Below, one piece after another: positions 12,222-21,034 of a stretch of 64,000 bases of DNA. The DNA is taken from positions 1 through 64,000 of the forward strand of contig JARLIK010000002.1 of NCBI GenBank assembly GCA_031291755.1. Reading direction: 5' to 3'. Within the stretch, counting starts at the first letter, position 1, and the number at the start of each line of letters is the position of its first letter. The notes under the pieces are model-generated. The model did not search any database. It worked only from the letters and a program-made list of their open reading frames with translations, and was not told the origin of the DNA. This stretch comes from Acidocella sp. Its GTDB lineage: Bacteria > Pseudomonadota > Alphaproteobacteria > Acetobacterales > Acetobacteraceae. A program made the translations under genes and the position numbers.

Positions 12222-12752
12222 TTAGGCGCCCTGGCCAACCGGCGGGCAATAATCAACGCTGCCCGGCACTTGCGCCACCAGATGTAAGAACGCACCGAAC
12301 GGCCCCATGTTGGACATCGCTTCCCACTTCGGCCCCTGGAAGTTCAGGCGGCCAAACATCATCGCGGTCATCGGTGAGCCCATGTTCTGCCAGTTCGCGG
12401 TGGTGGCCCACATCGAATAATCCACGCCATAATCCATGGCAGCGCCCTTGATCGCGCCGCCGTAAATGCAGATGGCCTTGCCGTCCTTGAAGGCGATTTG
12501 CAGTTCAACCGGTGCGCTCTTGGTGCAGACGGAATCTGCCACTTTCAAAGTTTTGTAGCCCTTGCCACCGTCATTATGAACCCAGCCGCCCGCAAGACCG
12601 GTGGTGAGGTCAGTCGATTGATTCCATGCGTCACATAAATTATTCGCCCAGTCCGGCGACATAAACACCGGCGATGTGGAAGCGGCTAAAGCAACGTTGC
12701 TGAAAAAGAACGTTGCGGCGGTTGCCGATAAAAACACTTGCTTTAACTTCAT
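12222..12752 (-). CDS. Secreted SCP2-like (sterol carrier/lipid-binding-like) protein
   Basis: Signal peptide MKLKQVFLSATAATFFFSNVALA; body resembles the SCP2-like protein at 18562-18954 by eye. Confidence 0.6.
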   Translation of the reverse strand: MKLKQVFLSATAATFFFSNVALAASTSPVFMSPDWANNLCDAWNQSTDLTTGLAGGWVHNDGGKGYKTLKVADSVCTKSAPVELQIAFKDGKAICIYGGAIKGAAMDYGVDYSMWATTANWQNMGSPMTAMMFGRLNFQGPKWEAMSNMGPFGAFLHLVAQVPGSVDYCPPVGQGA

Positions 12753-12870
12753 AACTGTCTCCCTGAAAACCGCTTTTATTGTTATGGGCAAGCGGATTTT
12801 CAGGTTTAACAAGATTTCAGCGTTTGCCTATTAAGATATTCTGGTAAGTGCGCCCAGTCTGCCTTAACGC

Positions 12871-17694: not shown

Positions 17695-18549
17695 TTAAGC
17701 GTCGCGGGCCACCATGAAGGCGCTGTCGTCGATCTCCAGTGTCGAGGTTGAGCGCAGGTCAATCGCCTCATGGCCGCTGATATACTCGTCCGCCAGCATC
17801 GTCAGGCACGCCACCTCGTCCTCATTGACCGGGGTGAAGCCGGTAAAGCCGATATCCTGCAATAGCATCTGCCCACGCGGTTCCTCGTCCATCCGGCAGA
17901 GCACCTCGGTGAGGCGCACCTGCAACGGCAACAGGCGGGGGCCGATACAAAAAGCGTGAAAGGCGAAGGCGTCATCGGATTTGTCGATGATGCGCAGCCG
18001 GTCACGGATCAGGCTGCTGGCGCCGGCGTAGATTTCATCGAACAAAAATCCGATATCGGCTTGCTTTTGCAGCACCGCTTTCAATACGCCCTGGTAACTG
18101 CCGGTGAAGACAAACTCCAGCCGCGCCCGGTCGATCTCAGCCTTATCGAGCAGGAACAGCCCCACCATATGAATGAGCGTGCCGGGGTGCGCCGAGGCGA
18201 TCCGGATGCGTTCCGGCAAATCAGCCACTGTCTCGATGGCGTTGGCGGCGGTGGTGCAGAGATACACCTCATCGTAATGGTCGCGTGGTTTGGCGATGGG
18301 AATGAAATCCAGCTTTTGGGTATATTGCACCCAGTCAAACGGATTGGCGTAAACCAGGTCATATTCATTTGAGAGCACAGCAGCCCGGCAATCATCGAAG
18401 CTGTCATGCGGCGCAAACCGCATCGCCACCCCAAGCTGGCGTTGCAGATAGGTGTTCATTAAAAACCAGCCGGGCAGATTCTTGCCGGAGTAATTCGGAT
18501 CAACTGTAAAGTTTAATTTAGCTCCGCTGCCGGTTTGAGAATCTGACAT
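17695..18549 (-). CDS. PhnD-like phosphate/phosphite/phosphonate binding protein fold, no signal peptide
   Basis: LNFTVDPNYSGKNLPGWFLMNTYLQRQLGVAMRFAPHDSFDDCRAAVLSNEYDLVYANPFD; N-terminus MSDSQTGSGAK lacks a secretion signal. Confidence 0.75.
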   Translation of the reverse strand: MSDSQTGSGAKLNFTVDPNYSGKNLPGWFLMNTYLQRQLGVAMRFAPHDSFDDCRAAVLSNEYDLVYANPFDWVQYTQKLDFIPIAKPRDHYDEVYLCTTAANAIETVADLPERIRIASAHPGTLIHMVGLFLLDKAEIDRARLEFVFTGSYQGVLKAVLQKQADIGFLFDEIYAGASSLIRDRLRIIDKSDDAFAFHAFCIGPRLLPLQVRLTEVLCRMDEEPRGQMLLQDIGFTGFTPVNEDEVACLTMLADEYISGHEAIDLRSTSTLEIDDSAFMVARDA

Positions 18550-18561
18550 GACACCGCTTCC

Positions 18562-18954
18562 TCAGATATTAAAATCAACAGGAATCTTGCCTAGAATTTG
18601 CAGATGCATGTTGAACGGCGCCATGTATTTCATGGCCGTCATCATCGAGCCTTTGAACTTTAGCCGCCTCGTCATGAGAGCGGCCTTGCCGCTGACCTCG
18701 CCGGAGAGGATTTTTTTCCAGTTGTCGAGGCTGGCCCACATGATGAAGTCGCGGGCTAGTCCGTCCGATGGCCCGGCGTAAACGACTTTGCCGGCCTGGC
18801 AGACCAGCATGACATGCGTAACTTCCGGCCTGTCCTCGATATAATATTCCCATGAGGCATTGAAATTTTTCAAATCCTTTTGGATTTCAGGGTTCGCATC
18901 CCATTGGGCGCCCACCAACTGAATCCACTCCGCGCTCATAAACTTCGCTGTCAT
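18562..18954 (-). CDS. SCP2-like (sterol carrier/lipid-binding-like) protein, cytosolic
   Basis: MTAKFMSAEWIQLVGAQWDANPEIQ...VTHVMLVCQAGKVVYAGP...DFIMWASLDNWKKILSGEVSGKAALMTRRLKFKGSMMTAMKYM. Confidence 0.75.
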   Translation of the reverse strand: MTAKFMSAEWIQLVGAQWDANPEIQKDLKNFNASWEYYIEDRPEVTHVMLVCQAGKVVYAGPSDGLARDFIMWASLDNWKKILSGEVSGKAALMTRRLKFKGSMMTAMKYMAPFNMHLQILGKIPVDFNI

Positions 18955-19058
18955 TTTTTAAGCCTCTGGACCGTTGTTTTTTAGTTTTTGTCAGAAAACT
19001 CGATGTGATTTGACTTCGATCATCCCGGACCTATGTCAGGGCCTTATGCAACGCTGGC

Positions 19059-19451
19059 TCAGTGCAGGAGTGTTGCCACCGCCTGGGCCGTATATTTTGC
19101 ATTCAGGAACAGCAGCCCCAGTTTTACGGTCTTGTTGGCGATCACGCAGAGCACCGCGTCGCTGCCAGCATGCACGATGAGGATATGCCCATGCGAGCCG
19201 CTGACCAGCACCTGTTCCAACTGGCCACAGGCCAGTTCGGCAGCGGTACGATCACCCAATGAGAGCATGGCTGCCACCATGGCCGCAACACGGTCCTCAT
19301 CCATTGCGCCCGGTAAGGCCGAGGCCAGGATCAACCCATCAGTCGAAATGAGCGCCGAAGCCTCGATACTGGCGGAGCCGTTGTTAAGGTCTGTTAGCAC
19401 GGTTTTTATTTCGTTTTCACGCAAGGCTGCCTCCCCTAAGCGAGCTATCAA
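19059..19451 (-). CDS. Roadblock/LC7 domain protein
   Basis: ASALISTDGLILASALPGAMDEDRVAAMVAAMLSLGDRTAAELACGQLEQVLVSGSHGHILIVHAGSDAVLCVIANKTVKLGLL. Confidence 0.82.
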   Translation of the reverse strand: MIARLGEAALRENEIKTVLTDLNNGSASIEASALISTDGLILASALPGAMDEDRVAAMVAAMLSLGDRTAAELACGQLEQVLVSGSHGHILIVHAGSDAVLCVIANKTVKLGLLFLNAKYTAQAVATLLH

Positions 19452-19684
19452 CTTAGGATTAGAATGTTTTTACATTTTCGCAATAGGATTATCGTAACTT
19501 ACGTCAATTGCTTAACTATCTGCACAAGGCATAAGCTTCGCAAAACTCACTTCAGCTTGTGCAAATTTTGAGCGTAATTCAAGGAAATTATTCAAATCGT
19601 CAATTGTTGCAGCGATATGATTTTTCGCGCGTATCTGGACAGATCTAACGTTAAGGTCAATGATATCGTTACGGGGTTAAAAGC

Positions 19685-21034
19685 TTGAAGGATGCTCCCA
19701 TGATCACACCACAGCGGGACAATGCCACTGGCATCGTGACGATTGATAATGAACCCGTTATCTTTCACTGCAATCATTATAACCGGGTTCTACAGTTGGT
19801 GGTGGAAGATTGCCACTACATCAAGCGAGAGCCGATCCTTATCAATTCCGCTGCAGAAGTCAGCTTCCGCCAAATGCGAGCGCATTTTGACGCCAACCCG
19901 GGCATGAACCGTGCAGCATGCCTTGCCTATGCGGAAGAATTTTACCGGTTTTGCGGATTTGGAAATTTGCCGATTGCCGCTATTCCGCCGTTGCCGCCCG
20001 AGGGGGTAGTTATCGAGGAGGCATTCTCTCATTACGGCTGCGCCCTGCGCCTGAATTATGGCAAACGCCGCTGGGCCGGCGATTATTTCGATCTAGGATT
20101 TGCCGTCGGTGTGCTTGCCGCGGTGGATGGCATCGCCGTCACCGGACAGATAGATCAGGCGCAGTCAATTTCCATGGGGGCCCACAACAGCCGCTTTCAC
20201 ATTGCTCCTGCCACCGAGGGGCGATTCCTGCTTGATACCCCGCCGATCGTGCCGGTGACGCTGCCACCGCGCGCGGATCAGGTGCCGGTCCGCACGGTTG
20301 GCCTGCATATCGATGAATCGGCGATCATCGCGGCGGTCGGCACGTTGCCGCTGGCGGGTGATGAAAACGGTATGATCCCGGCATTTGGCGTGTTCCTCAC
20401 CCGCCATTATGCCGATTATTATAACCTCGTTTCGTTCCGTTATGAGCGGGCGCTGGCCGAGGCTCTGAAAACCCATAAATATCTCAGCGATGTTTTATGG
20501 TTCGAATACCCCGCGCTGTTTTATTACAAGGATAAATTCAGCCATCTCAAGGGCATGGAACTGGCCAGCACGCTGTTGATCGAAGCCGGCCATATCTGCG
20601 GCTTCAACACCATGGGCGGGATCATGCGTTCGGACCCCTGGTATCAGCTGATCGTGCCGCAATTGCGCACCAAGGAAGATTGGATATCGGGGGTGGTCGC
20701 CTGCATCAACGCGCTGGGGTGGGGTGTGTGGCGCATTCATGAGATTATCCCTAACGAACGGCTGGTGCTGCGGGCCTGGCACCCTTACGAATCTCTCGGC
20801 CATCTGCGGCTGTTCGGTAAAGCCGACCATCCGATTGATTACTTGCTCACCGGCATCGGCGGCTCATTGATGAATTTGCTTTACAGCGCCGATATCACCA
20901 CCAAGCCGGACCTCACACTGGATTTTTATTATAAGGTCAACCGTTCGAAATCGGGCTTCTGGGGCCGCCAGACCGCCTGCGTGGCGATGGGCGATGCCTA
21001 TTCGGAAGTGGTGGTTGAACGCAACGTTTTGTAG
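19685..21034 (+). CDS. Uncharacterised protein with two V4R (4-vinyl-reductase)-like halves
   Basis: C-terminal half: NALGWGVWRIHEIIPNERLVLRAWHPYES...GIGGSLMNLLYS...CVAMGDAYSEVVV; similar layout in the N-terminal half (CGFGNLPIAAIPPLPPEGVVIEEAFSHYG...DLGFAVGVLAAV). Confidence 0.55.
   Translation: MKDAPMITPQRDNATGIVTIDNEPVIFHCNHYNRVLQLVVEDCHYIKREPILINSAAEVSFRQMRAHFDANPGMNRAACLAYAEEFYRFCGFGNLPIAAIPPLPPEGVVIEEAFSHYGCALRLNYGKRRWAGDYFDLGFAVGVLAAVDGIAVTGQIDQAQSISMGAHNSRFHIAPATEGRFLLDTPPIVPVTLPPRADQVPVRTVGLHIDESAIIAAVGTLPLAGDENGMIPAFGVFLTRHYADYYNLVSFRYERALAEALKTHKYLSDVLWFEYPALFYYKDKFSHLKGMELASTLLIEAGHICGFNTMGGIMRSDPWYQLIVPQLRTKEDWISGVVACINALGWGVWRIHEIIPNERLVLRAWHPYESLGHLRLFGKADHPIDYLLTGIGGSLMNLLYSADITTKPDLTLDFYYKVNRSKSGFWGRQTACVAMGDAYSEVVVERNVL

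Follow-up and report, generated by a model that had tools for sequence, protein, structure and literature searches.

The four-gene locus described here, in a window of 64,000 nucleotides from contig 37 of a 2.59 Mb Acidocella MAG (G000, 84% complete), is best read as a GTPase-free, sensor-rich derivative of the Group 3 MglA/Roadblock systems known from beta- and gammaproteobacteria (Wuichet and Sogaard-Andersen 2014; PMC4316618). The locus encodes a PhnD-like protein (P0001), an SCP2-domain protein (P0002), a Roadblock/LC7 protein (P0003) and a protein predicted to have a tandem V4R fold (P0004), and the closest genomes that carry it are Acidocella MAGs. An earlier note on this DNA had proposed an undescribed module; we confirm its observation and find partial support for its interpretation. 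The class of system found in relatives, where the Roadblock protein has a GTPase partner, has already been described; the lack of that partner is particular to this lineage.

Gene content and layout of the locus

The four open reading frames were all recovered on the strands first reported (Table 1), and three of the proposed identities were borne out by Pfam: Phosphonate-bd in P0001 (2.2e-44, the only domain found), SCP2 in P0002 (PF02036, 2.7e-14) and Robl_LC7 in P0003 (PF03259, 6.8e-15). Two gene starts were revised. P0003 more likely begins at the TTG at 19424 than at 19451, since GGGGAGG lies just 5' of the former and relatives start at the same residue. P0004 more likely begins at the ATG at 19700 than at the TTG at 19685, since the latter reads TTA in the sister genome L004. 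With the corrected starts the divergent intergenic region spans approximately 275 bp, not 233 bp as first given.

Table 1. Features of the Acidocella locus, with positions in the window
Feature	Position	Strand	Basis
P0001, cytosolic PhnD-like protein (Phosphonate-bd, PF12974), 284 aa	17695..18549	-	Pfam; no signal peptide
P0002, cytosolic SCP2-domain protein, 130 aa	18562..18954	-	Pfam
P0003, Roadblock/LC7 protein, ~121 aa from the corrected (more likely) TTG start	19059..19424	-	Pfam and start comparison
Divergent intergenic region between the Roadblock and tandem-V4R genes, corrected bounds	19425..19699	.	Sequence
P0004, predicted tandem V4R-fold protein, ~444 aa from the corrected (more likely) ATG start	19700..21034	+	Predicted structure

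The three minus-strand genes had been called a probable operon. The SCP2 and PhnD genes do form a tight pair with a 12-bp gap, and membership of the Roadblock gene is plausible because no terminator-like site was found in the 104 bp that separate it from the SCP2 gene. In the divergent region the promoter-like matches are matches to consensus only, and comparison with sister genomes revealed no conserved operator. The best inverted repeat, ATCTGCACAAG/CTTGTGCAAAT, was rejected as an operator because it is lost in the sister genomes. The four-gene locus contains no output gene, and no permease or ATPase gene was recognised among the ORFs adjoining it. Two other identities were also considered and set aside: phage or plasmid cargo, as P0004 had no match in viral contigs or plasmids, and a defence system, as none of the four proteins had a PADLOC match.

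Predicted folds and ligand sites

No signal peptide was found in P0001 or in eleven relatives (12 aligned sequences), and P0001 has no hydrophobic N-terminus, which places the protein, by its sequence, in the cytosol. For the PhnD fold, a sensing role in the cytosol would be unusual. Two P0001-related proteins carry an N-terminal fusion to STAS, a cytosolic signalling domain, while a Pfam scan found no histidine kinase domain fused to P0001 itself. A STAS-PhnD fusion was observed in a Burkholderiales MAG (L099, 8102-9271).

The predicted structure of P0001 (pLDDT 83) matches ArrX, PtxB, PhnD and AioX at Z 20-23 and also resembles the sterol-binding BstB (7t1m, Z 20.2); in the sequence-profile matches PtxB, ArrX and AioX are present and BstB is absent. 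By profile alignment, only one (a Tyr) of the five residues common to the PhnD and AioX oxyanion sites is kept in the P0001 family. An invariant Asp-Glu replaces the second Tyr, 11 of the 12 sequences have Tyr in place of the His, and the Ser-x-Ser loop is lost. P0001 accordingly departs from an ABC-transporter phosphonate-binding protein in its missing signal peptide, in its neighbours and, one Tyr excepted, in the Tyr, Tyr, Ser-x-Ser, His set of ligand residues. P0001 shares its predicted fold with PtxB, ArrX, AioX and the TtrS-type proteins, among which AioX, ArrX and TtrS are also sensors, but differs from them in its cytosolic location, in the replacement of most of the oxyanion-site residues and in having no transporter or histidine kinase gene beside it.

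P0002 is 77 to 82% identical to SCP2 proteins of Acidithiobacillus, whose genes likewise adjoin PhnD, and among the 25 genomes with a P0004-family member its close relatives (77-96%) occur only in Acidocella and Acidithiobacillus. Behind the SCP2-PhnD pair of Acidithiobacillus lies a further conserved gene, of 490 aa, with a UbiD-like reading (L083, L088, L089). Elsewhere in the window, at 12222-12812 on the minus strand, P0002 has an SCP2-like paralogue that carries a signal peptide and matches no Pfam family; its homologues with an FM...W...W start are found in Acidithiobacillus, Halothiobacillus and Thiothrix.

P0004 gave no significant Pfam or NCBIfam match, and the Pfam V4R family (PF02830) was absent up to an E value of 1. 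The earlier assignment as a tandem V4R-like protein nevertheless appears right in fold. In the AlphaFold2 model (mean pLDDT 90.2, pTM 0.92, from a 20-sequence alignment) the N-terminal half resembles the sensor domains of MopR, PoxR and DmpR, with Z scores of about 15-16 and an rmsd of about 3 Å over 170 to 180 residues (best figures Z 16.0 to 5kbi_A, rmsd 3.1, 179 aligned). The same half less strongly resembles TRAPPC3/Bet3 and BcsD. The C-terminal half, taken from the full-length model, has the same order of elements and weaker structural matches; no internal sequence repeat was detectable in P0004, the two halves being alike in fold only. P0004 as modelled differs from the MopR, PoxR and DmpR phenol sensors in consisting of two V4R-like halves, with no AAA+ or DNA-binding domain. 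Its family carries HCNHxN and EAGHxC-type motifs, with H28-C29-N30-H31 and, in the EAGHxC stretch, G302 and C305 among the invariant residues, and is undescribed in the libraries searched. Three distant relatives, from a deltaproteobacterium (L025), a spirochaete (L026) and a gemmatimonad (L029), have small uncharacterised ORFs upstream (approximately 70 and 106-119 aa). Asgard archaea also encode Roadblock and V4R-fold (TRAPPC3) proteins in one genome, together with GTPases (PMC10933270); here such a GTPase is lacking, P0004 is a predicted tandem, and its family looks unrelated.

The earlier note had offered ligand sensing and lipid handling as alternatives. Lipid handling is possible, with no specific support, and we consider it unlikely that P0001, P0002 and P0004 bind or pass a hopanoid or another hydrophobic molecule in the cell with the Roadblock protein as a scaffold. 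Such a role would fit the SCP2 fold of P0002, the loss of oxyanion-site residues in P0001, the ligand cavities of V4R/TRAPPC3 proteins (PMC10933270) and the structural match to BstB, which binds sterols (PMC10942540). BstB, however, is periplasmic as well as missing from the profile matches, close SCP2 partners do not extend beyond the two genera named above, and the genes with which PhnD relatives are linked encode PAS, STAS, Roadblock and GTPase proteins and are not lipid genes. The intracellular ligand-sensing set is upheld by the absence of signal peptides, by the MopR-like V4R fold predicted for P0004 and by the association of relatives with sensors (PAS, ODP, protoglobin) and with STAS and GTPase-Roadblock genes.

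Distribution and the operons of relatives

P0004 was present in three of the 37 Acidocella genomes compared, and its family in none of 396 other sampled Pseudomonadota. A scan of GTDB contigs with exact patterns taken from P0004, over an uneven sampling of taxa, returned 27 P0004-family loci. Most belong to Acidithiobacillus, Halothiobacillus, Thiothrix and further gamma lineages that are sulfur oxidisers or unclassified; distant members occur in Spirochaetota, Gemmatimonadota and Acidobacteriota.

The families of the locus co-occur far beyond background, and this is not chance. A PhnD relative was found in 20 of the 25 P0004-family genomes versus 3 of 396 background genomes at E<1e-28 (Fisher p ~1e-26, kinship ignored), and a Roadblock relative in 22 of the 25. 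The earlier note had named an absence of co-occurrence in other genomes as grounds for refuting its module, and that is therefore not what was found. Conservation of the neighbourhood itself is narrower: the exact four-gene set was seen only in three Acidocella, namely G000 and two others (L004 and L005) in which the four genes stand in the same order, and elsewhere the parts are mostly split over two or three loci. This narrow distribution, together with the 104-bp gap between the Roadblock and SCP2 genes, could be taken to mean that a transferred PhnD-SCP2 pair and V4R gene came to lie beside a Roadblock duplicate with no joint function. We regard such chance neighbourhood as highly improbable, given that none of the three carriers has lost the set (protein identities 93-98%), that the same families occur together in 20 to 22 of 25 genomes and that Halothiobacillus has three of the four side by side in one locus.

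In Halothiobacillus the genes run from TPR through receiver-like, small GTPase, MglB-like Roadblock, a 157-aa protein, Roadblock, PAS, PhnD and tandem V4R to an OmpR-type regulator, with an unbroken Roadblock-PAS-PhnD-tandem-V4R stretch behind the GTPase-MglB pair. The TPR/receiver-like/GTPase/MglB/Roadblock/PAS/PhnD operon is conserved across many genera; Thiothrix and several unclassified lineages keep it and have the tandem V4R gene elsewhere. Acidithiobacillus has three loci, namely the GTPase operon, the SCP2-PhnD pair and the tandem V4R gene. The V4R and Roadblock genes are apart in most Acidithiobacillus or Thiothrix; in Acidithiobacillus STE_117 the V4R gene directly adjoins a Roadblock gene and an ODP gene. 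Of the PhnD matches in the random background sample, the three strongest (G286, G323 and G353) and one weaker match (G465) also belong to operons of this type, and soxB was found in each of these four genomes.

Judging from their sequences, the operons of relatives fit the described Group 3 MglA systems (PMC4316618), because the GTPase carries TPGQ in G3 and, among six sequences, DAR (three) or DGR (three) in G5. The profile of the receiver-like protein (A7) matches only response regulators in the PDB, weakly (best E 0.02), with wHTH not seen. The GTPase is coupled to one or two MglB, as in Group 3 MglA, and the orthologue of P0003 follows the TPGQ/DAR-type GTPase, the MglB-like Roadblock and the receiver-like protein, corresponding to the two-MglB type. 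The published systems consist only of a GTPase, one or two MglB and a receiver-wHTH protein, whereas the loci described here add PAS, PhnD, V4R and SCP2 genes, and in Acidocella the GTPase family searched (A3) is missing from the version found.

The hosts point to sulfur metabolism in a statistical sense. Matches to soxB over the cut-off were found in 15 of 25 P0004-family genomes versus 66 of 397 background genomes, or in 7 of 12 lineages by our own grouping (p ~0.002). The link goes no further than that because soxB is represented in G000 by fragments at contig ends alone, and in the Acidocella carrier G017 (99% complete) nothing exceeds the soxB cut-off, which rules out a strict link to sox. 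The G000 fragments are C-terminal and lie at the starts of contigs 4 and 31 (bases 5-97), so that this genome probably has a sox cluster that was split in assembly. One alternative is that P0001 acts like the PhnD-like domain of TtrS/ThsS, as a cytosolic thiosulfate/tetrathionate sensor that reports sulfur oxyanions via the Roadblock protein. The predominance of sulfur oxidisers among the hosts, the enrichment of soxB, the sensing of tetrathionate or thiosulfate by TtrS-type domains (PMC5408782) and the close structural relationship of P0001 to the oxyanion sensors ArrX and AioX (PMC5908839) all speak for it. The proposal is thus attractive by distribution but not by pocket, since the oxyanion-site residues are mostly replaced; P0001 also has no fused histidine kinase and G017 carries the locus with no soxB over the cut-off, and we judge this alternative to be quite unlikely.

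The missing GTPase and a proposed sensing complex

The statement that no GTPase is present holds for the four-gene locus, which has no MglA-type gene, and for the partner GTPase family (alignment A3) it extends to the three Acidocella carriers, namely G000, 84% complete, and its sister genomes G017 and G031, 99-100% complete. The partner that relatives encode next door is missing from the lineage of these carriers. Roadblock proteins commonly pair with GTPases (PMC4316618; PMC10933270), and P0003-type Roadblocks adjoin a GTPase-MglB pair in relatives, so that P0003 might be an ordinary MglB-like regulator of a small GTPase encoded elsewhere in the genome, with its neighbours as inputs to that pathway. 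This is very unlikely in our estimation: the partner family, which is present in three other Acidocella, is absent from all three carriers in the search for that family, and Acidocella Roadblocks are linked to protoglobins instead. Roadblock relatives were found in 18 of 38 Acidocella, several of which encode a Roadblock-protoglobin fusion with a separate Roadblock gene next to it. In G000 one such arrangement lies on contig 7, and a PAS-PhnD pair of the Halothiobacillus type on contig 33. In the Acidocella loci L103 (8268-10133), L127, L128, L130 and L132 Roadblock is fused to or paired with protoglobin, with no output domain. The literature searched yielded nothing relevant that connects Roadblock proteins with sulfur oxidation, with Acidithiobacillus or with protoglobin.

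Phylogenetic trees placed P0003 beside Acidocella Roadblocks, P0004 inside an Acidithiobacillus/Halothiobacillus clade (99/96) and P0001 closest to Acidithiobacillus proteins. The locus therefore looks composite, a native Roadblock gene joined to transferred sensor genes, where we infer the root and the direction of transfer.

The explanation that we favour, at somewhat less than an even chance, is an intracellular sensing complex centred on Roadblock and free of GTPase, derived from Group 3 MglA operons; the complex, the direction of transfer, ligand binding and the output are what we infer here. A Roadblock/LC7 platform would form the core of the complex, P0001 and P0004 would serve as soluble ligand-binding inputs, and P0002 would present or buffer a hydrophobic ligand for both, with the Roadblock dimer acting as the switch that relays the bound state. 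The source would lie in sulfur-oxidising proteobacteria, in GTPase-Roadblock operons of the Group 3 MglA type, where Roadblock would control the MglA-type GTPase and the receiver-like regulator. An Acidithiobacillus-like donor would have supplied the V4R gene and the PhnD-SCP2 pair; Acidocella would have placed both next to a second copy of its native Roadblock gene and would run the module without that GTPase. This explanation builds on the gene content, the predicted folds, the cytosolic location read from the sequences, the operons conserved in relatives, the co-occurrence of the families, the fusion links, the trees and the failure to detect the partner GTPase family in the Acidocella carriers. 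The separation of the V4R and Roadblock genes in most Acidithiobacillus or Thiothrix, the lack of an output gene in the locus and the soxB result for G017 weigh against it. The regulated process could conceivably be reduced-sulfur energy metabolism or an oxygen response.

A bolder version, which we hold to be doubtful though possible, is that Roadblock/LC7 signalling operates here without any GTPase, with PhnD-like, tandem V4R and protoglobin sensors acting directly via Roadblock dimers, whose target would be something other than a GTPase; the lineage would have put parts of a sulfur-oxidiser GTPase pathway back together without the GTPase itself. In the literature searched we found no tested precedent for GTPase-less Roadblock signalling, nor any report of the input signal of a Group 3 MglA system. 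If the Roadblock module does lack its GTPase, this would suggest that Roadblock proteins can signal alone. The PAS, PhnD, V4R, ODP and protoglobin genes are candidate inputs for Group 3 MglA, a question that can now be tested.
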